From assembly GCA_019186945.1 (NCBI GenBank), contig JABAQJ010000004.1:124001-188000 (forward strand): a stretch of 64,000 bases of DNA, read 5' to 3'. Positions 3,726-60,901 of this stretch are shown here, in pieces. How positions within the stretch are numbered: the first letter of the stretch is position 1; each line of letters opens with the position of its first letter. The notes beneath the pieces were generated by a model that worked only from the letters and a program-made list of their open reading frames with translations, searched no databases and had not been told where the DNA came from. The translations under genes and the position numbers were made by a program. The DNA comes from Gemmatimonadaceae bacterium (GTDB lineage Bacteria; Gemmatimonadota; Gemmatimonadetes; Gemmatimonadales; Gemmatimonadaceae).

Positions 3726-4463
3726 CTACTGATGCGTGAGGCGCAGTTCGTCGACGTTGACTCGCGTGGGCTGCGTAACCACCCAGCGGACGGCCTCGGC
3801 GATGTCCGACGCCGCGAGCATCTGCTCGCGGCGCGGGAATCCCGGGCGGTTGTCGGGATCGATCGGATCCCAGATTGTCGTGTCCACCGGCCCGGGTGAG
3901 ACCAGCGAGACGCGGACGCCGCTGCCGCGCAGCTCCGTGCGCAGCACCTCGTGAAGCGCGCGCGCGCCGAACTTGCTCGATGCGTAGGCAGCGTTACCCG
4001 CATACGCTACTCGGTCGGCGACCGACCCCACGGTCACCACGTGACCGCTTCCCCGAACGCGCATGCGGGGCGCGTAGGCATGAACCAGCCGAAATGGCCC
4101 GATCAGGTTCGAGTCCAGCGTCGCGGCGAGGGCCTCGGGGGAGAACGTCCCGATGGGCGCCACATCGAACACGCCGGCGCAGCTGACGAGAATATCGGGA
4201 AGCCCCGCCCACGCCTCGATCTCCGCCAATGCGCTATGCACCGCATCCGCATCCCGCAGGTCGGCAACCACCGGGTGCGCCGCCGGGCCAAGGGACTTGG
4301 CAGCATGTGCGAGCGCGTCAGCCGTCCGGGCCACCAGCGCCACCCGAATGTTGCAACTGACTAGCGCTGATGCCACGGCGAAACCGATCCCGCGCGACGC
4401 CCCCGTGACCACCGCGGTACGCGATCCGACTCCGGCCGCGGCGCCCGCAGCTCGGCTACTCAC
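3726..4463 (-). CDS. Short-chain dehydrogenase/reductase (SDR)
   Basis: A classical SDR of 245 residues with the cofactor motif TGASRGIG, the NAG-equivalent SCAG, and the catalytic Ser/Tyr/Lys set in GSVADRVAYAGNAAYASSK (YxxxK). The region after the active site, SPGPVDT, is typical of NADPH-dependent members. GTG start; the first 8 nt overlap the end of the upstream pterin-synthase gene, so the two are probably translated together. In eukaryotes and some bacteria a 6-pyruvoyltetrahydropterin synthase works with an SDR (sepiapterin reductase) to make tetrahydrobiopterin, which makes that role worth testing. A ketoacyl-reductase-like or unrelated role is equally compatible with the motifs. Confidence 0.8.
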   Translation of the reverse strand: MSSRAAGAAAGVGSRTAVVTGASRGIGFAVASALVSCNIRVALVARTADALAHAAKSLGPAAHPVVADLRDADAVHSALAEIEAWAGLPDILVSCAGVFDVAPIGTFSPEALAATLDSNLIGPFRLVHAYAPRMRVRGSGHVVTVGSVADRVAYAGNAAYASSKFGARALHEVLRTELRGSGVRVSLVSPGPVDTTIWDPIDPDNRPGFPRREQMLAASDIAEAVRWVVTQPTRVNVDELRLTHQ

Positions 4464-4869
4464 CGTGATACTCCACGGCGTTGTTCTCTGTCTCCCAGAG
4501 TACCAACCTGGACAGGCGGGCCGGCAGGAGCGCAGGCGCCAGCGCCTTCCAGAACTCGACTACGATGTTCTCGGATGTGGGGATGACGCCCCGCATGAAA
4601 TCGACGTCGAGATTGAAGTTCTTGTGGTCGACCTTCTCGAGGACCGTTCGCGTCACGATGTCCCGCACGCGCCCGAGATCCAGCACATAACCCGTCTTCG
4701 GGTCGATCTCACCCGTCACCGATACGTCCAGTATGTAGTTGTGCCCGTGCCAGTTGGGATTGTTGCATTTCCCGAACAGGGTAGCGTTTTCATGATCGCT
4801 CAGGACCGGATTGTGGACGCGATGGGCGGCGTTGAACCGGAGGCGACGAGTAGCGGTAACGCGGGGCAT
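4456..4869 (-). CDS. 6-pyruvoyltetrahydropterin synthase / QueD family protein
   Basis: A 137-residue T-fold enzyme acting on dihydroneopterin triphosphate. The zinc-binding His in RFNAAH and the HGH pair of CNNPNWHGHNY are present, with PTSEN and the late Glu. The spacing Cys-x5-HGH is that of eukaryotic-type PTPS; bacterial QueD typically has Cys-x3-HGH. Either 6-pyruvoyltetrahydropterin (BH4 route) or 6-carboxy-tetrahydropterin (queuosine route) is therefore possible. The frame is open further upstream, but homology begins at the ATG at 4869 (MPRVTATRR), which I take as the start. It overlaps the SDR gene by 8 nt. folE, the first enzyme of both routes, is about 19 kb away. Confidence 0.8.
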   Translation of the reverse strand: MPRVTATRRLRFNAAHRVHNPVLSDHENATLFGKCNNPNWHGHNYILDVSVTGEIDPKTGYVLDLGRVRDIVTRTVLEKVDHKNFNLDVDFMRGVIPTSENIVVEFWKALAPALLPARLSRLVLWETENNAVEYHGE

Positions 4870-4950
4870 ATGACGAGCGATGGCACGAAGGCGATTGGGA
4901 GACAGGATGTCCCTGCGTACCTTACTGCCACGCCATGCCGAAAACAAAGC

Positions 4951-5666: not shown

Positions 5667-6638
5667 TCAGATTTCCCAGTTCGACAGGACCATTCCCAGT
5701 CTCGCTCCGCCCGGTTCCAGGTCGACCAGGGTCATTCGCAGATCCGTCCACCGAACGCGTCCGCCGCGTTCCACCAGCGTTCGGTACGCGTGCAGGTACT
5801 CGCCCTGAATGCGAACGGCGACGCGCCGTGTGCCAAGGCGCGCAGCTACGCCCACCAGCCCATCGGCAATGCGCGCGACATCGCGCTCGTCGGCGAGGAC
5901 CATCTTGAGGACACGCAGCTCGTCACGTGGCCTGCCCTCGATCAACGGCGCCGTGTGGAACAGCGCAAATCCGGTGAGTCGCCCCTGGTCCCACAAGAGG
6001 AGTGTGTCGCCAAGACCCAGCTCCGCGGTCAACGCAATCTCGCGTGTGAAGTCCACGCCCGGCGCGCAGGCTGTCGTGAGCCGAGCACATTGTGCGATGA
6101 CGTCGCCTCGTGACGTTTCGTGCAGTCGGCCGAGGAGCGACGCTGGCTCGGCGACCGGCGCGGCGTCCAGTGTCAGCGTTATGGTCAGCCGCTGCGGAAC
6201 GAAGCCAAGACGCGAGTAAAACCCGATGTTGTCCATCGTTCTCGGCATGGTCTCCAGGCCGATGACGCGCGCGCCCTGCGCCCGCAGCCATGCGATGCCC
6301 GCCATGACGATCCGTTTCCCTATGTTTCTGCCTTGGGCGTCGGTACGCACCGCCAGTGGACCCATCCAGCCTTCGTTTCCCGATCGGTGCGCGATGTTGA
6401 AGGCAACGATGTCGCCGCGCTCACTGCGCCATTGCATCGCCCCGTCACCGGCATCCTCGATCGCGTACCGCCAAATGGCGGGGTTAAGCTGCGGCACGCG
6501 AACGCCAACCATCCCATCCTTGCGGTAGCGTTCGGTAAAGGCGTCGGCGAACACGGCGTTCAGCTCAGAGACGTCGTTCGGGTCGATGCGCTCGGGACGG
6601 GCATCGGGCGTCGTGTCGGACGTACGTGTCGAGGTCAT
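5667..6638 (-). CDS. GNAT-family N-acetyltransferase
   Basis: A 323-residue protein whose central part carries the GNAT acetyl-CoA motif: GPLAVRTDAQGRNIGKRIV gives the V-x-x-x-x-Q/R-x-x-G-x-G/A-like motif A, followed by the motif-B-type ending NIGFYSRLGFVP. The C-terminal half (from about residue 170) looks like a second, degenerate GNAT fold, giving the two-lobed form seen in some family members. The start ATG overlaps the stop of the Rad50-like gene by four bases (ATGA), so it is the last gene of the DNA-end-processing operon. Acceptor substrate unknown; whether it serves repair or is merely co-transcribed cannot be said. Confidence 0.8.
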   Translation of the reverse strand: MTSTRTSDTTPDARPERIDPNDVSELNAVFADAFTERYRKDGMVGVRVPQLNPAIWRYAIEDAGDGAMQWRSERGDIVAFNIAHRSGNEGWMGPLAVRTDAQGRNIGKRIVMAGIAWLRAQGARVIGLETMPRTMDNIGFYSRLGFVPQRLTITLTLDAAPVAEPASLLGRLHETSRGDVIAQCARLTTACAPGVDFTREIALTAELGLGDTLLLWDQGRLTGFALFHTAPLIEGRPRDELRVLKMVLADERDVARIADGLVGVAARLGTRRVAVRIQGEYLHAYRTLVERGGRVRWTDLRMTLVDLEPGGARLGMVLSNWEI

Positions 6639-9097
6639 ACGTCCTCCGCTCCCGCGCTCTCGAATGCAGCGTCGAGGATGTCGGTTGGCGATCCGCTCGG
6701 TTCCAGCTGCTGGACGACCGCCGAACCGGAGTGCTCGTCATAGGACACCGTGATCACGCGATCGAACCCGTCCTTCACCGACTCGATATGCGTGATCATG
6801 ATGACCTGCTCGAAACGATCCTGCAGGCGGCGCAGGAGCTCGATGACGTTGTGGCGTCGCGACTCGTCGAGGGAACCGAATACTTCGTCGAGCACCAGCA
6901 GCGAGAAGGCCTGCCCGGCCCGCTCGGCGATCATTTGCGATATCGCCAGACGTAATACCAGGTTCGACAGGTCTTCCTCGCCGCCCGAGATCACCGGCTT
7001 CGGGTTACCGTCCTCCAGTACGATCACTCTGTAAAGGTCGTCCAGTTCCAGCTCTGAATACCTGCCATCTGTGAGGTCCGAGATGAAGGTACTTGCCAGA
7101 TCCGACAGCTCCGGGCGCAACTGGAAGTTGAGATCCGTTCGCAGATCCGAATACGCGCGATCGAGTTCGTCATGGAGCTTGCGGTCCCGCTCGAGAGCGC
7201 CGAATGTGGCCTGCGCCTTCTCCAGGTCGCGACCGGCGCGGGTGGCGTTCTCCACCCCCTGCGCTGCCGTCGCCTTGTCCGCCGTCGCCGACGCCAGCGC
7301 CACCGCCGTGCTGCGGGCCAGCGCCGAGGCTTGCTCGAACTCCTCGCGAAGCCGCACGTAGTCCTGTTCAGAAAAATCCGCTTCGGCGCGTCGCTCCCTG
7401 AGCGCGGCAAGATCGCTGCCGAGCCGCAGGGCTTCTTCGGCGATCCGCGACTGTTCGGCACGCAAGCCGTGTTCGCGTTCGATCACGGCTGAGAGGCGCG
7501 TCGCCCGCGCGTTCAGGGTCGCCAGGTAGTCGACACGATCGCGCAGTTCCGCGTGTCGGATCGCGTCGTAACCGCCGGGAAGTCCCGCGATATCCGCTTG
7601 CACGATCACGAGCTGTTCCTGTTTCGTCTGCAGGTCGTGCGTCAACTGGGCGAGTTCCTGGACCGCCGATTGCACCCGCGCCAACTGGCGCTGGTGCGTA
7701 TCGACCTCGGACTGCAACTGGCGACGCTGCGCCTCCAGCGACGCAACGTCGGCTGGCATCGGGTCCAACTGCTCGATCCGCGTCGCGTAGTAGCGACCAT
7801 TGTAGGCAATCGTCTCCAGCTGCTCCTCCAGCTGTTCCAGAACGGTCCGGAAGGACGCCCCCAGCGTGCGCGTGCAGGTCGGGCAGATGCCGTCTTCACC
7901 GAGCTCGACGAGCTGGTCGCGCTGGTTCTTGACGTCCTGGTACTGCGCTCGCAGCGCATCTCGCCGCGTCTCGGCCTCCTGGCGCTCGCGCACCCATTCC
8001 GTTCTCTTGGCCTCCAGGGCTCCCTGCGCCTCTTCGAGTTCGCGTCGCTTTCGCTCGTAGCGCTCGGTGACTTCTTCCTCGAGCTGCGGTGCGCGAACGA
8101 CGCGGTCGCGCCGTTCGCGCAGGCCGGATACGTCGGCGATCAGCCCGTGTTCCTGGCTCATCAGCGTCTGACGGCGACCCTCGCTGCGTGCCAGCTCCTC
8201 GAACCGCCGGAACTCATCGGCGAGGGCCGCGAGCGGGGCCAGCTCGGTCGCGAGGCCGTCGAGTTCGTCACGGGCCTCGGCCACCTCGGCGAGCTCGCGC
8301 GCAAGCCGCTCCAACTCGCGTTCGCGCGCCTGTGCCTCGCTCTCGCGCAGCCGGAGGTCCGCGATCAGCGCCTGGAGTTCGTCGCGAGATCGCTGGGCCG
8401 CCGCCCAGCGCGGCGCCACGATGCCTAACGCAGCCTCTGCGTCCCGATGCGCGACCTCCGACGCTGCACAACGCGTCTCCGCCTCGGCCAGGCGTACGCG
8501 TTGCTCATCGAGCAGACGCGCCACTGCTTCCGGGTTGGGCATCGCGGAACGCACGCCCGACAACTCGGCCACGATCAGCTTTCGCCGTTCGCGTACCAGG
8601 AGCTGCGCCGTTCGCAGCTTGTCGTAACCAAGGACGCGGGACAGGAACTGGCCTCGCTCGGCCGGTCCCAGTGCCGCCATGACGTTCAGTTCCTTCTGCC
8701 CCGTGAAGTACGTGTTGAAGAACTCCGGGCGCGTCATCCCCAGACGACGCTGCAGCAGCTCCGTCACCCCCGAGATCGAATTGGCGATCGGCTCCGGCGC
8801 GCCATCGAGAAACAGCTCGGCGCTCGAGAGACCACGGACAACGCGATAGCGATGCCCCGCCAGCTCGAAATCCAGATCGACGCGCACCGGAGCGCGCGCC
8901 GGCGCACGAGAAAAACGCAACGTCTCGCGCGTCCCGCGCGCTGCCGACTGGCCGTACAGCGCCCAAGCGATGGCCTCGAGGATAGTCGACTTCCCCGCAC
9001 CGTTCGGACCGATGATCCCGGTGAGCCCGAGGTCGAAATCGATCCGGGTGTCCGCGTGCTGACGGAAGTTGACGAGGTGGATCGAGTTCAGTCTCAC
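6635..9097 (-). CDS. sbcC: Rad50/SbcC-type SMC-like ATPase
   Basis: An 820-residue ABC/SMC-type ATPase, partner of the Mre11/SbcD nuclease in DNA double-strand end processing. The N-terminal Walker A GPNGAGKST has its Lys at 36; long coiled-coil arms rich in Glu/Arg/Ala flank a CPTC zinc hook at 405-408, almost exactly mid-protein; the ABC signature appears as ISGGEED, and Walker B is LLVLDEVFGSLDE with the catalytic Glu near 738. It is shorter than E. coli SbcC (about 1,050) and close to archaeal Rad50 length. The frame stays open far upstream through the SbcD gene; the real start is the GTG at 9097, which overlaps the SbcD stop by four bases. Confidence 0.92.
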   Translation of the reverse strand: MRLNSIHLVNFRQHADTRIDFDLGLTGIIGPNGAGKSTILEAIAWALYGQSAARGTRETLRFSRAPARAPVRVDLDFELAGHRYRVVRGLSSAELFLDGAPEPIANSISGVTELLQRRLGMTRPEFFNTYFTGQKELNVMAALGPAERGQFLSRVLGYDKLRTAQLLVRERRKLIVAELSGVRSAMPNPEAVARLLDEQRVRLAEAETRCAASEVAHRDAEAALGIVAPRWAAAQRSRDELQALIADLRLRESEAQARERELERLARELAEVAEARDELDGLATELAPLAALADEFRRFEELARSEGRRQTLMSQEHGLIADVSGLRERRDRVVRAPQLEEEVTERYERKRRELEEAQGALEAKRTEWVRERQEAETRRDALRAQYQDVKNQRDQLVELGEDGICPTCTRTLGASFRTVLEQLEEQLETIAYNGRYYATRIEQLDPMPADVASLEAQRRQLQSEVDTHQRQLARVQSAVQELAQLTHDLQTKQEQLVIVQADIAGLPGGYDAIRHAELRDRVDYLATLNARATRLSAVIEREHGLRAEQSRIAEEALRLGSDLAALRERRAEADFSEQDYVRLREEFEQASALARSTAVALASATADKATAAQGVENATRAGRDLEKAQATFGALERDRKLHDELDRAYSDLRTDLNFQLRPELSDLASTFISDLTDGRYSELELDDLYRVIVLEDGNPKPVISGGEEDLSNLVLRLAISQMIAERAGQAFSLLVLDEVFGSLDESRRHNVIELLRRLQDRFEQVIMITHIESVKDGFDRVITVSYDEHSGSAVVQQLEPSGSPTDILDAAFESAGAEDV

Positions 9098-10290
9098 TCG
9101 GACTCCGGAACAGCCAATGCATCTGACTCGGCGACGTCCGCGTGCTGCAGATACTGCAGTCCCAGCTCGACGAGCGCCTCGCGATTCACGTCCGGAGCCA
9201 GTGGGCGACTCCACAGTCTGTCGCGAACGATATCCGACAGCGAGGCACGACGACTGGCGACGCCGCTGGCGCTCGGGCGCGCGACGTCCGGCCGGCGCGT
9301 GTCCAGATGGAACTGCAGGGCACGCTTCCGGTACGCGCGAATCGCACGGTGATCCAGTTCGCGAGCCACATGCCGAGGCACATCGTAGACGAGCTGGCGG
9401 ACGATCTTGTCGTCGATGCCGCCCGGTTGCCTGCAGCCCTCGACGTTGGCGCGAATGGCAGCGTCGATCTCGGCAGCCGTCGCACTGCGGGCCCGGATTA
9501 CGGGAAGATCCACCAGCGGTCGGGCCAACGGCAGCTTGTGCATCGTCCGCTTCCCGCTCTCGAGATCGTACTCGATCATGTACTTGCCGCGAAGCTTGGC
9601 GGCCGTCTCCTCCGCCAATTCGCCCCAGATGTTCAAGCTCGCGTACTCCATGGCTCCGCTGTAATACGCGTGCGGCGCTACTTGCTTGAACACGTGGTGA
9701 TGCCCGAGTGCCACGTAAGACCACTTGTCGATGTTGAGATCCCTGACCGAGACGGACAGGGACGCCCGTTCCGAATCCGCCCATGGCTTTGGCACGAACT
9801 CCGGAAGCTCGCCATGGAACGCCAGCACGTTGAACCTGAACGCCGGATCGATCTCGAACTGCGGGCGCTGTCCGGCGACGTCGGGCACCGCCAGGATCGA
9901 AAGCGACCGGTCGGCAAATGCGATACGGCGCTCGCGAGAGTCGACGACTTCGATACCCAACGGCGAAAACAGCCTGAGGATGCAGCCAGTTTCCGCGGCA
10001 CGTGGGGTGTCGTGGTTCCCCGCCAGCATCACGACGATCGTCTCCGGCAGTTCCTGCCTGAGACGCGAGAACTGCTGGAACGCCGTCAGGATCGCCGGAT
10101 TCGATGGCCGCACGTTGTGGAACACGTCACCGGCAACGATCACCAGCTCCGGCGCGCGCTCGACAATCGCGTCGATGGTCCTCCGGAAAACGTGCGCAAT
10201 GTCCGCCTCGCGCTGGTTGATGCCCGTCGGCGTCGTCCGCTGGAACTGGCGAAAGCCCAGGTGAAGATCGGATAGGTGGATGAGCCGCAT
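9094..10290 (-). CDS. sbcD: Mre11/SbcD-type DNA exonuclease
   Basis: A 398-residue metallophosphoesterase with all the phosphodiesterase motifs in order: SDLHLG, AGDVFHN, LAGNHDTPR, FHGE and GHHH. These build the two-metal site that cuts DNA ends in complex with Rad50. The C-terminal 130 residues are Arg-rich and would form the capping and Rad50-binding parts. It begins with ATG at 10290 and ends with TGA overlapping the GTG of the Rad50 gene. A 63-nt gap separates it from the secreted-protein gene upstream, and HerA and NurA genes lie just beyond, as in archaeal resection operons. Confidence 0.93.
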   Translation of the reverse strand: MRLIHLSDLHLGFRQFQRTTPTGINQREADIAHVFRRTIDAIVERAPELVIVAGDVFHNVRPSNPAILTAFQQFSRLRQELPETIVVMLAGNHDTPRAAETGCILRLFSPLGIEVVDSRERRIAFADRSLSILAVPDVAGQRPQFEIDPAFRFNVLAFHGELPEFVPKPWADSERASLSVSVRDLNIDKWSYVALGHHHVFKQVAPHAYYSGAMEYASLNIWGELAEETAAKLRGKYMIEYDLESGKRTMHKLPLARPLVDLPVIRARSATAAEIDAAIRANVEGCRQPGGIDDKIVRQLVYDVPRHVARELDHRAIRAYRKRALQFHLDTRRPDVARPSASGVASRRASLSDIVRDRLWSRPLAPDVNREALVELGLQYLQHADVAESDALAVPESE

Positions 10291-10353
10291 GTCGCCGAAC
10301 GGTTCACGCGAGTGGACGGAGGGGCCGGGCCCACCTGAATATACCAGCGCGGG

Positions 10354-11196
10354 CTATTTCGCCCGCATCCACTGCGTGATCTTCACCCGCACCTGCATCG
10401 GCGGTTGGTCGGGCTTCTCGCCAGGGACGAGCGAGCGAACGTTGATTGTCGACCGGGCGTCGGTGATCCAACCCCGCTGACGATCCACTACCACACTCCC
10501 GGTCACCGTTCCGTTGGCCTCCACGGTCGTGGCACCGCCGGTGACGGGAGGTGCCGCGTGTCGACTGAGCCGACCGCTGACGGAAAGAAAGGCCAGATTC
10601 CCCCCGCGGCCGAGCGAGTCCAACCGAAACGTTGCGGTCATCACAGCGGTCCCGCGTGCTGCGCTCAGGGCGGACATCGGGATCTCCATCCGGCGCTCCC
10701 AACTGGAGCCTGGCGCGACTGGTTCCTTGGGCAATGAAGCCGGCAACTGGGCCAGGAACGCGCCGACATGCGGCGCCGCACCCGCACCCGGCCCCTCCAT
10801 GGAAGGCGTCCCGTCGACAGCAATGCGGAACCGGAATCGCTGTCCTTCGAGGGCCTTCGCCCAGCCGAGCAATGAGCCGCCAGGTTTTCCTGAGGTCCCT
10901 GTCAGGTGCACGCTGTCCGTCATGGCAGTTACCGTCGCCCCCGCAAGATCGGTCGCCTCGATCGCTACCCGCGTCAAGGCCACCATCGCGTGCGACTCGC
11001 TGTTCGTCAGGTCCGCGTTGCCCTTGCGGGTCGTACCTGACACCTCCACCGACTGCTCGATACGCAGTCGCAGCGTATCTCCGGCGCGCGGGCGAATCTG
11101 CAACGCGACCGCCTGCGCCCCGAGAAACACGGGGCTCAGCACGCCGAGTCCCAGGGCCGCCAGCCTGCCACCGTTCATGGGGCGGGCCTCACTCAA
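10354..11196 (-). CDS. Secreted protein of unknown function between HerA and Mre11 genes
   Basis: A 280-residue protein with an N-terminal signal peptide (hydrophobic LAALGLGVLSPVFLGAQA ending in a likely cleavage site) and a beta-rich, Thr/Val-rich mature part. No cysteine pairs or catalytic motifs are visible. Segments such as GDTLRLRIEQSVEV and a late GTVTGSVVVDRQRGWITDA resemble DUF6263-like periplasmic proteins, but I do not recognise it firmly. The ATG at 11196 overlaps the HerA stop (ATGA); ATG at 11178 would give a more standard signal peptide. A secreted protein inside a DNA-repair operon is odd and may just be co-transcribed. Confidence 0.6.
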   Translation of the reverse strand: MSEARPMNGGRLAALGLGVLSPVFLGAQAVALQIRPRAGDTLRLRIEQSVEVSGTTRKGNADLTNSESHAMVALTRVAIEATDLAGATVTAMTDSVHLTGTSGKPGGSLLGWAKALEGQRFRFRIAVDGTPSMEGPGAGAAPHVGAFLAQLPASLPKEPVAPGSSWERRMEIPMSALSAARGTAVMTATFRLDSLGRGGNLAFLSVSGRLSRHAAPPVTGGATTVEANGTVTGSVVVDRQRGWITDARSTINVRSLVPGEKPDQPPMQVRVKITQWMRAK

Positions 11197-13187
11197 CTCC
11201 CATACGGATCGTCGGCCGGCGTTGGCCGCAGACGCGGGATCTGACGCGGCTGGACTGGCATCGCCGCAACCCGTGCGCGGAACTGCGCCTTGAAGTGCTG
11301 GCGGACATTGGCCGGCCGAGCCCGCAGCGTTGCATCGCGGGCTCGCAGCACTTCGGCCTCATCGAACAGCGCCGAAGCCTCGCGTACGAAGTCGAGCGTG
11401 ATCGAGGAGTCGAGCCGGCGCAGCGCTCGAAGGACAGCGTCCTCCAGCGTCTCCTCTGCCTGCTGCGGGAATCGCTCGATTCCAACACGTCCGGACATGA
11501 CCAGCGGCCGCGGGAAGCGGACGAAGATCGGCTGCGTAAAATGCGGATGCCGCACCATCAATTGTCCCTTGTCCAGCGTCGCCAGCTTGGTCTTCGTGGC
11601 CGGGCCGAGCACCTGGTATCCAGGGGTCGCCAGTTCATCCGCATCCATTCTCCCATAGAGCGCGGTCGCCGAGTTCCCGACCACTCGACGGTGAACCTGG
11701 CTGCGAAATTGCTGCGCGCTGAACAGCACCAGTCCCAGGTAGCGTCCACGTTCGGCGATGTCGAGAAGCATCCGGCGGACGTAGGTGTCCTGCCCGTCCG
11801 CCGGCGCGTACTTGTTGAGTTCATCCACGAACACGACCAGGTGATTGACTCCGAGGTCGCGCCGTTCCAGCCGTTCGCGGAGGGCAGAGACGACGCGGGC
11901 GAAAATGAGATTCTGCGCGTCCTCTTCCAGGTTGGCGACGTCGATCACGTACACGGCCCTGTCCTCGAAGTTGCCGAACGGCAGATCGCTGACCGCGCCG
12001 GCCTCGGTAACGAGTCCCTGGCAGCGCGTGGAGAAGTTCGACAACCGATTGCGAATCTTGCGTACCGTCGCGATGTGATGCGTGCGCCAGCTTTCCTTGC
12101 CGGAATCCTCCATGTGCATCAACACGTCTCGAAACCACGCGTCCAGATCCTCGAACGTACGGATGTAGTACCGCTTGCCGCCCTGCAGCGCCGTGTCGTG
12201 GAACTCTCGCGCGACCACTCGTTCCGCGATGAAGTCGATCAGGGCGTCTGCCTTGGCGTCGACATCGTCGCGGTTGAGCAGAACCTCGGCGTAGCGGAGC
12301 ACTTCCTCCAGGCCCCAGGTGAGCGGGTAGACGTTTTGCGTGAGTTCGGGATTCGAGCGGAGCGTGTTGAGAGAGACGCCCCGAGCCGTGTAGGGGGCGT
12401 AGTACGAGACGTTGCGGAAGGGCACAGGATCGATGCCTAACGTCTTGTAGATCGCGAGGTCATCGGCATCGAGCGTTCCCGGCTGGTCGAGGAAGCACAG
12501 ATCGGGGCCTTTGACGTTGAAGCAGACGGCGGCGATCGAACCCTTCTGCCGAGGGAAGTGCGTGAACAGGGATGCGAGCAGGAACTCCACCGCGCTCGTC
12601 TTGGTCGCCAGGCCAGAGACGCCGGTGATGTTGAGATGTGCGGCTTCCGGCCCAAGCAGAAAGTCGGCATCGACGAAGATCGGGGATGCCATACCGCCCG
12701 CTCGGTACACACCGATCGGGATGGCCGTGCGGTTCTCCGCCCGCAGGTAACCGTCCATGCGCAAGGCCAGAGCGACGTCCTCGTCATTCGCGAGGTGGAC
12801 GGCGCCCATTGGGACCGGCTGCAAAGGTTCATCCGGGATCTGCCGCAGCACCGCCGCCGTGTAGAGCCGGATCTCAGATCGGATCGTCGGCGCGCTCAGG
12901 GCATCGGAAGGCGACGCGTCATTCCCGATCACGTCGTGAAGCGGCGACACGAGGTCCGTGTAGCTCAACCCGTCGGACACCACGCCGTAGATCCGGGGAA
13001 TCGACCCATTGACGGGCTGGGCGCCCTCGACACGGACGATCGTGCCGATGCCTACAGGAGAGTCCAGCGCCGTCCAGAAATGGAACTCATGCGGAGTGTT
13101 GGGTCGTTTCTCCGTCGCGACGACGCGGCCCAGCGGCGGCGGGGACAGCGGTGGTTCGTGGTTGTTCGATTCCGGTGCGTTGCTCAC
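11193..13187 (-). CDS. herA: HerA-type DNA translocase/helicase
   Basis: About 664 residues. HerA is a hexameric ATPase that pumps DNA into the NurA nuclease during end resection. The N-terminal HAS-barrel-like segment begins GRVVATEKRP; the nucleotide loop reads GVSGLATKTS (Lys near 196), where the usual Gly before Lys is Thr; Walker B is VVFVDELNKYAP; arginine-rich segments follow (RRMLLDIAERGRYLG, FSAQQFRSQV). The start is uncertain: the frame is open to 13325, inside nurA, but the GTG at 13187 sits just before the conserved N-terminus and leaves a 71-nt gap after nurA. It overlaps the next gene by ATGA. It contains one copy of the CGTTAGGC octamer. Confidence 0.85.
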   Translation of the reverse strand: MSNAPESNNHEPPLSPPPLGRVVATEKRPNTPHEFHFWTALDSPVGIGTIVRVEGAQPVNGSIPRIYGVVSDGLSYTDLVSPLHDVIGNDASPSDALSAPTIRSEIRLYTAAVLRQIPDEPLQPVPMGAVHLANDEDVALALRMDGYLRAENRTAIPIGVYRAGGMASPIFVDADFLLGPEAAHLNITGVSGLATKTSAVEFLLASLFTHFPRQKGSIAAVCFNVKGPDLCFLDQPGTLDADDLAIYKTLGIDPVPFRNVSYYAPYTARGVSLNTLRSNPELTQNVYPLTWGLEEVLRYAEVLLNRDDVDAKADALIDFIAERVVAREFHDTALQGGKRYYIRTFEDLDAWFRDVLMHMEDSGKESWRTHHIATVRKIRNRLSNFSTRCQGLVTEAGAVSDLPFGNFEDRAVYVIDVANLEEDAQNLIFARVVSALRERLERRDLGVNHLVVFVDELNKYAPADGQDTYVRRMLLDIAERGRYLGLVLFSAQQFRSQVHRRVVGNSATALYGRMDADELATPGYQVLGPATKTKLATLDKGQLMVRHPHFTQPIFVRFPRPLVMSGRVGIERFPQQAEETLEDAVLRALRRLDSSITLDFVREASALFDEAEVLRARDATLRARPANVRQHFKAQFRARVAAMPVQPRQIPRLRPTPADDPYGS

Positions 13188-13258
13188 TGCTGTGCGGTGG
13201 AAGATGGCTCGCGCCTGCGACGAAAGGTACGCGACGGCCGACGGCCTGTCAGCGTCCG

Positions 13259-14242
13259 CTAGAGTTGGAGACGCACGCGCAGATACGACTCGACATCCCG
13301 GATTCCGTACGGCATGCGATCCCACCGACCGTCAGGCAACGCGAGCGGCGAACGCTCGGCGAGGATCCATCGCGAGACCAGGTCGACGTGTTCAGTAAGG
13401 ATGGATTGCGACCCGGATGGCGGCAGCGCAATCTCGACTCTGACCAGGCCCCACAGGGGATCGCGGCCCGGCGCGGTACGCACGCGCAAGTACCAGCTGG
13501 CAACGGGATCGCTCCAAGACGAGGGGATGAGGAAGGCGGCGGTTCGCTCCCGCTCACCTAACGAGGCGATCGTTTTGATCGACCCGGTACCGACATAAAG
13601 CGTGTGGTGGCTCTTGACGACGCCGACACTCCACCGGGGCGGCCGCTGGTCCGCCGCTCGCGGCACCGGACCGTCGACGAAAAGCGGCGCCGCTCCGGAT
13701 CGAGCCCACTCCACGGCGCAGTTCCGCTCGATCAGCTCGCGGGCGTCGAGAACCGCCTGATAGGCCAACCTCGTCAACTGCAACGGATGCGGCGGCGCAT
13801 CGCCCGCGGATCCCTGGAGCGTATCGACGACCTCGAGGCCGGTGCTTTCCAACGCTTCACGCGTGCCGGCCGAAAGGTGCGAGAACGGCACGTAGAAGCG
13901 CGCACTCTCCTCGACGGATCGCCACAACGTAAGACGCCGGCCGATTCGCACCCGGATCGCAGCGGCCACCTGACCGAGCACGACCGGCACCCCTTCGTCG
14001 TAATACCAGACACGGCTTGCCTGGATGCCGTCCAGGAACGCGCCGAACCCGACCACGGGCTCGCCTGCCACACGCCGTGCCAACATCGCGGTGCCCTCCA
14101 GCAGCTCGCACGCCCGCGTGTGCGGAGGCTCGATGGGCAACTCGCTGTGCTCCAGGGTCAGGCTGTCGCTGCCGTCAGCCAGCGGCAGCCCGGGAATGGC
14201 CCGTCGTAGCTGGCGGCGAACCGAACGAAGATCCGTGGTCAT
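13259..14242 (-). CDS. nurA: NurA-domain nuclease
   Basis: A 327-residue protein directly upstream of herA. It shows the NurA layout: an early Asp in FGAFLDGIQ, a mid-protein FVDGPVPR motif that supplies a second metal-binding Asp, and a Lys-containing GVVKSHHTLYV strand. NurA is the 5'-3' single- and double-strand nuclease that works as a dimer on the HerA ring. The ATG at 14242 is preceded by a purine-rich GGTGA. The call rests on these motifs together with the herA, sbcD and sbcC neighbours; sequence conservation of NurA is low, so motif evidence alone would be weaker. Confidence 0.75.
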   Translation of the reverse strand: MTTDLRSVRRQLRRAIPGLPLADGSDSLTLEHSELPIEPPHTRACELLEGTAMLARRVAGEPVVGFGAFLDGIQASRVWYYDEGVPVVLGQVAAAIRVRIGRRLTLWRSVEESARFYVPFSHLSAGTREALESTGLEVVDTLQGSAGDAPPHPLQLTRLAYQAVLDARELIERNCAVEWARSGAAPLFVDGPVPRAADQRPPRWSVGVVKSHHTLYVGTGSIKTIASLGERERTAAFLIPSSWSDPVASWYLRVRTAPGRDPLWGLVRVEIALPPSGSQSILTEHVDLVSRWILAERSPLALPDGRWDRMPYGIRDVESYLRVRLQL

Positions 14243-14265
14243 CCGGTCACCGCGGCCGGTCAGCC

Positions 14266-14544
14266 TCAGGTCGCTCCGATGTCCCAGGCCTGTTCCACGT
14301 CCCGGCTGGAATAGGCGCGGAAGGCGGTGAGCGTCTGTGTCCGTTCGACCCCGGCCACCGCGGGAAATCGTTCGGTGACGACTTCGGCAATCTGCTGGTA
14401 TTCGGGCACTCGAACGATGGCCACCAGATCCCACTCACCGGAGACCGAGTAGACTTCCTGCACACCTTCGATGCCCGCGATCTGCCTGGCGGTGTCCGGT
14501 ATCCGCTTCGCATCCGCCTTGATGAGGACGATGGTGGTGATCAC
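14266..14544 (-). CDS. Stand-alone Lrp/AsnC ligand-binding (RAM) domain protein
   Basis: A 92-residue protein consisting only of the regulation-of-amino-acid-metabolism domain of Lrp/AsnC regulators: a first strand ITTIVLIKAD, the helix ending in IAGIEGVQEVYSVSGEWDLVA, and a final helix. No helix-turn-helix precedes it, so it cannot bind DNA alone; such proteins form beta-barrel dimers or octamers that bind amino acids, or act with full-length Lrp proteins. GTG start at 14544, with GGAGGA a few bases upstream, overlapping the previous gene by four bases. The gene lies 23 nt before nurA. Confidence 0.78.
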   Translation of the reverse strand: MITTIVLIKADAKRIPDTARQIAGIEGVQEVYSVSGEWDLVAIVRVPEYQQIAEVVTERFPAVAGVERTQTLTAFRAYSSRDVEQAWDIGAT

Positions 14545-15041
14545 GCTTCCTCCGGGAACGGTGGAACGTCGAGCAACCATACGCCGGCCAGCCGGCTTTC
14601 CGTGTCGATATCGAGCAGCACCTCGCGTGCGATACGTACGGTGCGCGTCGCGCGCCGCGGACCGAGACGGAAATGGATCGTGCGTTCCGCATGGTCCGAA
14701 TCGGCGGCCATGGCGGTATTGACCTCGACCGCGTCGACACGCAGCCCGGGGTTCGCCGGCACGACGACACTCGCGTCTTCGACCTCCTCTGGCGGCACCA
14801 GCGCAGAACGCTTCCGGACCGTCGGCCAGACTGCCACCTCGACGCCGTTGATCCGCCCGCCAGCTACATCAAGGATCAGCCACGATCCGTCACTCCCCTC
14901 GAGATCGACGGAACCACTCACGCCGGCGCTCTCGCCCCGACCGCTCAACTGCGCGGAGAGAATGTCGGTATCAGGATCCCATCGGTAGGACACCGCTGGA
15001 GCGGAACCAATGCGGGGTTCGACGAAGACGGGAATGTTCAC
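14541..15041 (-). CDS. Unknown protein with two DUF2283-like segments
   Basis: A 166-residue protein I do not recognise with certainty. Two stretches share a pattern with DUF2283 proteins: YRWDPDTDILSAQLSG followed by a Gly-Val-Glu strand, and later REVLLDIDTESRLAGVWLLD. This suggests a duplicated small beta-domain. It has no signal peptide, membrane segment or catalytic motif. Its TGA overlaps the GTG of the Lrp-domain gene, so it belongs to the same transcript, ahead of nurA and herA. The 132-nt gap from the aminotransferase gene upstream could hold the operon promoter. Confidence 0.45.
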   Translation of the reverse strand: MNIPVFVEPRIGSAPAVSYRWDPDTDILSAQLSGRGESAGVSGSVDLEGSDGSWLILDVAGGRINGVEVAVWPTVRKRSALVPPEEVEDASVVVPANPGLRVDAVEVNTAMAADSDHAERTIHFRLGPRRATRTVRIAREVLLDIDTESRLAGVWLLDVPPFPEEA

Positions 15042-58341: not shown

Positions 58342-58792
58342 TCGTTTCCCCCTTCAACAGGTGAAGTTTGAATCCTGCCTGAACCCTTCTGTACAGCCCT
58401 GCGACTGAGACTGCCTTACCTCTTGTCTGGCGCCTCCAACTGTCTCACGCCCACGAAAGCGCCGACAAAGAACGCAATGCGGCCTTTGTCTCACGACAGC
58501 AGACCCCACCTCGCTCAGAGCCGTCACTTTTCCGCGAACTGCATGTCCCCGAGCCACATAACCGCTGGTCGAAGAGCCGGTCAAACTACCGCTCAAGTGA
58601 CTATCGGTCAAGCTGACTCGCGCTTCGACGACCAGGAGACGTCAGGGTAACCGCCATGCTGGTTAGGCACGGCCGCGCCTTGTGATCCAGCCCACATTCT
58701 TCATCCCAGCCCGACGACTGACCGAAGAGCGAAGAAAAACCGGCATGCCGACGCCGATTCCTTATATTCCCCTCCGCATTCAGCCGAACCAC
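58342..58792. other. Gene-free stretch upstream of the helicase gene
   Basis: About 450 nt between two divergent genes. Apart from the tandem promoters, it holds a possible -10 box TATATT at 58763-58768, about 25 nt before the helicase ATG, and GGTTAGGC at 58661, one base off the dispersed octamer. No small gene is convincing. Confidence 0.4.
58556..58611 (-). promoter_or_regulatory. Two overlapping tandem sigma-70-type promoters of the large lipoprotein gene
   Basis: On the minus strand, P1 is TTGACC (58611-58606), 17 bp, TAGTTT (58588-58583); P2 is TTGACC (58584-58579), 17 bp, TTATGT (58561-58556). The -10 of P1 overlaps the -35 of P2. Both -35 boxes differ from consensus by one base. Start sites would lie roughly 200 nt before the ATG at 58341. 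Confidence 0.5.
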
Positions 58793-60901
58793 ATGCCAGA
58801 ACCCGCCCCCACCCAAGCCTTGCTCTACAGCCGGTCAACGGCAGCGCCGGCGGGCTCCCGCAACCTCCTGGCTGAACTCAATCCGGAGCAGGCTGCCGCT
58901 GCCTCGTTCTCCGACGGCCCTCTCCTGGTCGTGGCCGGCGCCGGCACAGGCAAGACGCGAACTCTCATCTATAGAGTCGCGCACCTCCTCGACCGAGGCG
59001 TCCCGCCCGAGCGCCTTCTCCTCCTGACGTTCACCCGTCGTGCCGCCCAGGAGATGCTCGGCCGCGCCGAGCGCCTGGTCGGAAGCCGGAGCCGCCAAGT
59101 CCACGGCGGGACGTTCCACGGAACGGCCCACCGGCTGCTGCGGCGCTTCGGTCACCTCGCCGGCCTCCCGTCCGACTTCACGATCATGGACCAGGGAGAC
59201 GCCGAGGATCTGTTGCAGCTCTCGCGCGCGCAGCTCGGCCTTGCCGAGACGAAAAAGCGCCGGTTCCCGAAGAAGGAAACGCTTCACTACATCTACTCGC
59301 GTCACGTCAACACGGACATCGCGTTGGCCGACATCGTCGCCGACGAGTTCCCCCAGTTTGCAGACGAGCTGCCGCAGATCGAGCGCGTCCTCGCCGACTA
59401 CACGCGGCGCAAGGCCGAGCGGAACCTCGTCGATTACGACGATCTGCTGCTGTTCTGGGATGCGATGGTGGGGATAGATTCGCCGGTGGCGGATCGTATC
59501 GCCAGCCAGTACGACCACCTGCTGGTCGACGAGTATCAGGACACGAATGCGCTGCAGGCGCGAATCCTCCGGGGCATGTGCCGCCGCCACCGGAACCTGA
59601 CGGTCGTCGGCGATGATGCCCAGAGCATTTACGCATTCCGCGGCGCATCGCACCGAAACATCCTCGAGTTCCCTTCACGGTTCCCAGGCACGACGATCGT
59701 CACGCTCGAACAGAACTACCGTTCGACGCAACCGATACTCGACGTGACCAACACGTTGATCTCGCGTGCGACCGAGCGATTCACGAAGAACCTGTGGACG
59801 CGGCGTGAGGGAGGAGAGCGTCCCTGGCTGGTGACGACACAGGAGGAGCAGCACCAAACGCGCTTCGTCGTCGAGCGGATTCTGGAACTGCACGAGGAGG
59901 GAACGCCACTTCGCGAGATCGCGGTCCTGTTCCGCGCCGGCTACATGTCCGCCGACCTGGAGATTGAGCTAACGAATCGCAGGATTCCGTTCGAGAAGTG
60001 GGGCGGGCTCAAGTTCCTGGAAGCGGCGCATATCAAAGACGTACTGGCGTTCCTGCGGATCCTGGAGAACCCGCGCGACGAGGTCAGTTGGTACCGCATC
60101 CTGTTGCTGCTGCCGGGAATCGGCGATGCCACGGCGCGTTCGGCGATCGCCGCCATGGCCGACCTGGCATGGCATTCCACGGCCTTCGGCAGGTTCGTGC
60201 CTCCACCACGGGCGCGTCCGGCGCATGCGGCGCTGGTCGCCTTGCTGGATCAGATGCGGAATGCCTCGGAGATCACCGGCGCGGTCACCAGCGATATCGC
60301 CCGCGTCCGGGTTCTCTACGACGATGTGCTGCGGCAGAAGTACGACCGCGTCGAGCCGCGGCTCGCGGACCTGGATCAGCTCCAGACCATCGCCAGCGGC
60401 TATCCGTCGCGGTCAGCGTTCCTGTCCTCGCTCGCCCTGGAACCGCCGCAAGGGACGCAGGATCTTGCCGGCGCTGCCACCGACGAACAGGATGCTCTGG
60501 TCCTGAGCACGGTGCACTCGGCGAAAGGGAAGGAATGGGATGCGGTATTCCTGATCTGGGCGGTCGACGGGTGGTTCCCACTCGCGCGTTCGTTAGGTAC
60601 CGAAGGCGAGATCGAAGAAGAGCGCCGCCTGATGTACGTTGCTCTGACGCGCGCGCGGAACCGGCTGGCGGTCACCTACCCGCTGAACAGCTACGCGACG
60701 CGGCGCAGCGCCGACTACGTCATCGACCAGCTGTCGCGTTTCCTCGACCGCGGCGTGCGCGACCTGATGGACACGGTGGTGCTGAAGCCCGAGCAGGCGC
60801 AACACGGGGCGACTGCGCCCGAGCCGGTGCCCGCAATCGATTTGCGCGCCATGATGCAAAGGCGATTCGGCTCACCCGACCGAGATTCGCCGTCCCACTG
60901 A
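58793..60901 (+). CDS. UvrD/PcrA-like superfamily-1 DNA helicase
   Basis: A 702-residue SF1A helicase. Walker A is AGAGTGKT (Lys 54) in motif I, LLTFTRRAAQEML is motif Ia, GTFHGTAHRLLRR motif Ib, LLVDEYQDTNALQ motif II, VVGDDAQSIYAFRGA motif III, LEQNYRST motif IV, LSTVHSAKGKEWDAVFL motif V, and RLMYVALTRARNRL motif VI. It unwinds DNA in excision repair, mismatch repair or replication restart. At about 700 residues it matches PcrA/UvrD in length. ATG at 58793 fits family N-termini. It contains one CGTTAGGT octamer just before motif VI. Confidence 0.92.
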   Translation: MPEPAPTQALLYSRSTAAPAGSRNLLAELNPEQAAAASFSDGPLLVVAGAGTGKTRTLIYRVAHLLDRGVPPERLLLLTFTRRAAQEMLGRAERLVGSRSRQVHGGTFHGTAHRLLRRFGHLAGLPSDFTIMDQGDAEDLLQLSRAQLGLAETKKRRFPKKETLHYIYSRHVNTDIALADIVADEFPQFADELPQIERVLADYTRRKAERNLVDYDDLLLFWDAMVGIDSPVADRIASQYDHLLVDEYQDTNALQARILRGMCRRHRNLTVVGDDAQSIYAFRGASHRNILEFPSRFPGTTIVTLEQNYRSTQPILDVTNTLISRATERFTKNLWTRREGGERPWLVTTQEEQHQTRFVVERILELHEEGTPLREIAVLFRAGYMSADLEIELTNRRIPFEKWGGLKFLEAAHIKDVLAFLRILENPRDEVSWYRILLLLPGIGDATARSAIAAMADLAWHSTAFGRFVPPPRARPAHAALVALLDQMRNASEITGAVTSDIARVRVLYDDVLRQKYDRVEPRLADLDQLQTIASGYPSRSAFLSSLALEPPQGTQDLAGAATDEQDALVLSTVHSAKGKEWDAVFLIWAVDGWFPLARSLGTEGEIEEERRLMYVALTRARNRLAVTYPLNSYATRRSADYVIDQLSRFLDRGVRDLMDTVVLKPEQAQHGATAPEPVPAIDLRAMMQRRFGSPDRDSPSH

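Follow-up and report, generated by a model that had tools for sequence, protein, structure and literature searches.

Operons that join nurA, herA, mre11 and rad50 are well known in archaea, where HerA and Mre11 physically interact (PMC2288612) and Mre11-Rad50 acts first at the break, according to the archaeal work summarised in PMC5448004. In bacteria, HerA-NurA has been described from few organisms, mainly of the Deinococcus-Thermus group, and its role is disputed (PMC9960219). The NurA-HerA complex of Deinococcus radiodurans has been solved and resects DNA ends (PDB 7F6D); as the HerA hexamer moves along duplex DNA, it feeds a dimer of NurA that degrades the 5' strand (PMC9960219). A nurA-hepA-sbcD-sbcC cluster has been reported in the bacterium Oceanithermus profundus (PMC5448004). 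Here we analyze a stretch of 64,000 nucleotides (the window) of contig JABAQJ010000004.1, from a Gemmatimonadaceae-type genome of 3.95 Mb in 20 contigs that is rated 100% complete. Its minus strand carries six open frames, which, in descending coordinates, are nurA, herA, a DUF6263 gene, mre11 (sbcD), rad50 (sbcC) and a tandem GNAT N-acetyltransferase gene. By analogy with the D. radiodurans and archaeal homologues, from which its activities are deduced, this locus is likely to be a chromosomal, vertically inherited HerA-NurA and Mre11-Rad50 operon for DNA-end resection in Gemmatimonadota. What the sequences show directly is which proteins are encoded, how the operon is built, that its genes are inherited together and that nurA and herA are absent together.

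The locus has the same four functions in one operon as the archaeal systems, and its Mre11 and Rad50 have archaeal proteins as their nearest solved structures. Unlike those systems, it has a HerA and a NurA of the bacterial type, and it adds a tandem GNAT and, optionally, a secreted DUF6263 protein. A first-pass annotation of this DNA had called the operon archaeal-style, a description that fits Mre11 and Rad50 and does not fit HerA and NurA. With the D. radiodurans pair, our proteins have in common the HerA Walker A type (G-x-SG-x-ATKTS), the RNase H-like fold of NurA and, probably, a conserved lysine, whereas the sequences are remote and the Gemmatimonadota pair is operon-linked to mre11, rad50 and the GNAT gene. 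The O. profundus cluster is a published bacterial precedent with all four genes together, in a different phylum, and the accessible part of PMC5448004 mentions neither a GNAT nor a DUF6263 protein for it. With this precedent, and a second version in other Gemmatimonadota families, the four-gene arrangement is no novelty in a bacterium. The four-protein core is already known in bacteria and we describe a widespread, slightly unusual version of it; what is new is the combination of a bacterial HerA-NurA, an archaeal-like Mre11-Rad50 and a fixed tandem GNAT. Among the open-licence papers searched, we found no description of it for Gemmatimonadota.

Identification of HerA, NurA, Mre11 and Rad50

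Regarding HerA, a profile built from 21 homologues matches the D. radiodurans protein (DrHerA, 7f6d_B) with a total E=2.9e-52 over two stretches (profile positions 5-287 and 401-573), and the homology spans both the HAS-barrel/N-terminal and the RecA parts. The 710-amino-acid open frame shows a Walker A motif, GVSGLATKTS, at 235 and a Walker B motif, DELNKYAP (within VFVDELNKYAP), at 501. Walker A is present in 72 of 75 homologues, DELNKYAP in 71 and the shorter DELNKY in all 75. The Walker residues of DrHerA, K175/T176 for A and D487/E488 for B (PMC9960219), have counterparts in GVSGLATKTS and DELNKY. The open frame extends to 13325, and we preferred the GTG at 13187 as the start because most of the relatives' proteins begin shortly before a conserved GRVVATE. 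Pfam gave no match for HerA, and the best NCBIfam match (E=0.0016) was far below the cut-off. Given the strong match to the solved DrHerA, we read the protein as a remote family member lying below the sensitivity of the Pfam and NCBIfam models.

The NurA profile, built from 24 homologues of one phylum, matches D. radiodurans NurA (DrNurA, 7f6d_H) with E=1.9e-5. We then compared the AlphaFold model (pLDDT 90.8, from an alignment of 69 sequences) with solved structures by Foldseek, and the best matches were DrNurA (7f6d_G, 9.7e-13) and Thermotoga NurA (1zup_A, 2.5e-10). The next class was Argonaute (2.7e-3), and no other nuclease family was comparably significant, which upholds the name NurA given to this product in the first-pass annotation. 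Full-length TM-scores against known NurAs are moderate (0.53-0.62), as expected of remote relatives, and the identity with DrNurA in the structural alignment is around 18%. The columns D71-G72, Q74, D190, K210, H212, R268, E270, D304, R306 and W307 are invariant in the 69 sequences. K210 aligns with DrNurA K201, assuming a 20-amino-acid N-terminal tag on the 369-amino-acid PDB chain, and K201 is among the residues mutated in DrNurA (PMC9960219). We infer D71 to be the counterpart of DrNurA D53 by motif context rather than by alignment. No Pfam family, PF09376 included, matched NurA above its cut-off, with one of the 24 homologues reaching E=0.0075; we read the PF09376 miss as that of a remote NurA member below the sensitivity of the model. 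As judged from the profile and the predicted fold, the nurA product belongs to the bacterial NurA kind.

Structures of archaeal HerA and NurA have been published as well. Our PDB comparisons of HerA, NurA, Mre11 and Rad50 cover solved relatives only, and in the whole PDB the HerA profile finds 7f6d alone at E up to 0.1, while among the NurA chains the NurA profile finds 7f6d alone at E up to 10. As the profiles match only the D. radiodurans complex among these chains, both proteins are of the bacterial, Deinococcus kind and not archaeal-type. Gemmatimonadota HerA-NurA escapes standard family models: Pfam, NCBIfam and PADLOC alone fail to annotate the pair, and its identification needed family profiles and structure.

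The motifs of Mre11 (SDLHLG, AGDVFH, GNHD, AFHGE and GHHH) are intact, and its closest solved chains are archaeal Mre11 proteins (3auz/4tug, 2e-13). Rad50/SbcC, of which the genome has one copy only, retains the Walker A GPNGAGKS, the zinc hook CPTC, the signature SGGE and the Walker B LVLDE, and the CPxC hook and SGGE are found in 55 of 55 homologues. The archaeal Rad50 model PRK03918 matches it at 1.5e-60 (205 bits), against 4.5e-27 for TIGR00618 (sbcc), and its closest solved chains are the archaeal 3qku and 3aux, at about 1e-30. Mre11 and Rad50 resemble the archaeal proteins most.

Conservation of the locus in Gemmatimonadota

Gene order was counted in 80 loci with their flanks, the testable subset depending on how far the flanks reach. 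NurA precedes HerA in 72 of the 74 loci whose upstream flank is long enough, and in every one of the 73 loci that extend as far as Mre11, this gene comes after HerA. This gene order is far beyond chance, and its conservation in relatives removes one of the two objections that the first-pass annotation had foreseen. HerA was found in 51 of the 59 sampled genomes of the family, and its strong form in 158 of the 298 sampled genomes of the phylum. NurA accompanies HerA in 146 of these 158 genomes, and a strong NurA without HerA was never found. The locus travels with housekeeping neighbours, is near-universal within the order and has a fixed synteny.

In the HerA-negative members of the family and in family f3, NurA is also gone, and Mre11-Rad50-GNAT occupies the same site among the same neighbours; L156-L159, L163, L167, L168 and others present AAT/AsnC-Mre11-Rad50-GNAT without NurA-HerA. 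This suggests that the nurA-herA pair has been lost repeatedly as a unit. Considering nurA and herA by themselves, both are jointly missing in L156-L159, L162, L163 and L165-L169, from the same family and order, with AAT/AsnC-(DUF6263)-mre11-rad50-GNAT in place. Some genomes of families f4 and f9 have NurA or Mre11-Rad50 located elsewhere.

Most genomes of f1 and f2 have NurA-HerA next to mre11-rad50, and a divergent form is found in other families. This second HerA-SbcD-SbcC operon, with NurA at either end, was present in four of the four f5-f7 genomes examined (L200-L203, families f5 and f7); L202 shows the order NurA-HerA-SbcD-SbcC. These operons cluster the same four functions within the same phylum, but their NurA and HerA are divergent (about 200 bits for HerA, versus more than 1000 bits), their Mre11 and Rad50 match weakly, nurA frequently occupies the opposite end, a GNAT was not found in them and their genomes have an AddAB-like nuclease. 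Bacterial HerA-NurA is thus near-universal and syntenic with mre11-rad50 across two Gemmatimonadota families, in genomes mostly without AddAB, and many mesophilic species are now on hand to test its function.

Proposed role in end resection and alternative readings

In the resection reading, Mre11-Rad50 would bind the double-strand break and open or clean the end. The HerA hexamer would then translocate along the duplex and feed the NurA dimer, which would degrade the 5' strand and leave a 3' overhang for RecA. A domain search of the genome with PDDEXK_1 (PF12705) and UvrD_C found no RecBCD, AddAB or AdnAB, with the limits that RecC was not searched separately and that PF12705 at strict E missed the E. 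coli control. The sole PF12705 hit, a candidate AddB, was rejected as a Cas4g/Cas1g fusion. Three UvrD-type proteins are encoded, none with PDDEXK_1: two are of the UvrD/Rep type and one is a UvrD with a DEDDh exonuclease domain. The latter, a long protein on contig C1, had been a candidate AddA/RecB and was rejected on account of that domain composition. RecO, RecJ, and Ku with LigD are present. Since no RecBCD, AddAB or AdnAB was detected and RecO and RecJ are there, HerA-NurA would most likely do the pre-synaptic work jointly with a route of the RecFOR/RecJ type. The HerA-NurA resection route that had been put forward from the sequence therefore keeps its four proteins and the lack of a detected RecBCD-like enzyme, and it need not be the only route.

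Several observations weigh against the resection reading. What favours it across the phylum, an AddAB-like nuclease in 25 of the 158 strong-HerA genomes as against 108 of the 140 others, is a contrast confounded by phylogeny, and it vanishes within the family (13/86 HerA-positive versus 3/17 HerA-negative genomes). Families f5-f7 possess AddAB together with another HerA-NurA-SbcCD operon, so that counting their divergent HerA as positive weakens the phylum contrast. As HerA loss within the family is not matched by AddAB gain, HerA-NurA is dispensable in some genomes without an obvious replacement. Besides, the damage tolerance of D. radiodurans changes modestly, or even improves, when nurA or herA is deleted (PMC9960219), and the link of the GNAT to the system is a genetic one only. 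We do not claim that HerA-NurA replaces AddAB as a causal story, the contrast being strong across the phylum and absent within the family.

The GNAT gene had been set aside in the first-pass annotation, together with the secreted protein, as an addition to the archaeal set. For the secreted DUF6263 protein this stands, as described below; the GNAT gene, in contrast, comes immediately after rad50 in every one of the 54 testable loci, nearly always with an overlap or a gap of a few bases. In our locus its start codon overlaps the rad50 stop (ATGA). The protein is 52-63% identical to the GNATs of relatives and is kept with Mre11-Rad50 where HerA-NurA is gone. We conclude that it is a conserved member of the locus and a stable genetic partner of Mre11-Rad50, not a stray neighbour. 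Its model (pLDDT 92.2) matches tandem-GNAT folds, and among the closest structures are uncharacterised proteins and enzymes of small molecules, mycothiol synthase for one; the GNAT may act on a protein, although the predicted fold gives no sign of this. Our guess from the linkage is that the GNAT functionally belongs to Mre11-Rad50, possibly as an enzyme that acetylates this complex or a repair-linked substrate, be it a protein acetyltransferase or an N-terminal one. That it is a dedicated modifier of Mre11-Rad50(-HerA-NurA), such that acetylation by an enzyme translationally coupled to rad50 would control end resection across an entire bacterial order, is a speculative proposal that we regard as rather doubtful. 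One could argue instead, with a probability just short of even, that translational coupling is all that ties the GNAT to its neighbours, that its role is metabolic and unrelated to theirs, and that operon inertia has retained it. The breadth of the fold matches, small-molecule enzymes among them, would agree with this, as would the absence of the GNAT from f4 and f9 genomes with the same HerA, NurA, Mre11 and Rad50; its invariable position next to rad50, its persistence without nurA-herA and its well-conserved sequence speak against it. This alternative concerns the GNAT only and is compatible with end resection by the other products. Our search of open-licence papers turned up none that links a GNAT to Rad50/SbcC, and the acetyltransferase is a fixed genetic partner of Rad50 whose role is directly testable.

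For HerA-NurA itself, an unlikely alternative is that Mre11-Rad50(-GNAT) is the true repair core, working with RecJ/RecFOR, and that HerA-NurA is an accessory for another job, such as mobilising DNA or degrading DNA that is foreign or displaced, sharing the operon by chance. The clean absence of HerA-NurA from loci where mre11-rad50-GNAT stays put is in line with it, and so are the RecJ and RecO of this genome, the weak PADLOC matches to HerA-type and Mad protein models, the mild knock-out phenotype in Deinococcus (PMC9960219) and the effect of Thermus HepA on DNA mobilisation (PMC5448004). However, a chance association fits poorly with a pair that adjoins mre11-rad50 in the majority of f1 and f2 members and, as the divergent form, in further families, with the physical interaction of archaeal HerA and Mre11 (PMC2288612) and with inheritance among housekeeping neighbours instead of in a variable defence island. 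Finally, a defence system against phages made of HerA and SMC-like ATPases is highly improbable: the PADLOC models mad3, mad8, LmuB and HerA do match the operon ATPases, but we rejected these weak labels as generic ATPase matches, Rad50 also gets its 205 bits from the archaeal Rad50 model, the locus has no defence effector, its fixed synteny and near-universal presence in the order are not those of an island, and a known HerA defence complex has a different nuclease alongside the ATPase (PMC11291478).

Operon layout and neighbouring genes

The positions of the six genes and of two upstream neighbours are given in the table. The open frames and junctions bear out the places, the strand and the overlaps or short gaps that had been noted for them. 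Stop and start codons overlap by 4 bases at three junctions (HerA/DUF6263, Mre11/Rad50 and Rad50/GNAT), and DUF6263 and Mre11 are separated by 63 bases. With transcription deduced from these overlaps, the genes form a single, tightly packed predicted operon. Scans for promoters, terminators and Rfam families gave no signal above chance.

Table. Genes of the resection locus and its upstream neighbours, in window coordinates
Feature	Position	Strand	Evidence
nurA, bacterial-NurA-kind RNase H-like nuclease, 327 amino acids	13259..14242	-	homologue profile and fold match
herA, FtsK-HerA superfamily hexameric ATPase, ~664 amino acids	11193..13187	-	homologue profile; predicted GTG start
Secreted DUF6263 protein, optional member	10354..11196	-	PF19777 E=9.1e-7, over cut-off
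mre11 (sbcD), calcineurin-type nuclease	9094..10290	-	PF00149 2.6e-9; TIGR00619 sbcd 1.9e-20
rad50 (sbcC), SMC-like ATPase, 820 amino acids, GTG start	6635..9097	-	PRK03918 1.5e-60
Tandem GNAT N-acetyltransferase, 323 amino acids	5667..6638	-	PF00583 2.7e-11, N-terminal half
Stand-alone Lrp/AsnC ligand-binding-domain protein	14266..14580	-	PF01037 2.4e-15
DUF2283-like protein	14541..15041	-	PF10049 1.9e-4, just under cut-off

The DUF6263 protein has a signal-peptide-like N-terminus, with a TTG start at 11196 and an ATG at 11178. Of 73 loci, 48 carry its gene between herA and mre11 and 25 lack it; it is an optional member of the operon. The AsnC-domain gene precedes nurA by 23 bases, and in most relatives it is likewise found before nurA, at distances that vary; the DUF2283-like gene overlaps it and is present in many relatives. 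Because these two genes abut nurA, the operon probably starts further upstream than nurA. The AsnC/Lrp-domain protein is a probable operon or regulatory neighbour, and together with the DUF2283-like gene it possibly acts as a sensor or regulator of the operon.

Downstream of the operon, at 3726-4947 of the window, we found a gene for a QueD-like 6-pyruvoyl-tetrahydropterin synthase and an SDR gene, in an order kept in many relatives at varying distances. One of the UvrD/Rep-type helicases lies at 58682-60901 of the window, on the plus strand. Elsewhere in the genome, the Cas4g/Cas1g fusion (NF049935, 715 bits) and cas-like neighbours form a group of CRISPR-Cas genes on contig C7 (L154:4354-10949). 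On contig C1 (L153:5027-12563), the UvrD-like helicase with the embedded DEDDh (DnaQ-type) domain adjoins Ku and LigD, and it is possibly an end-processing enzyme for end joining.

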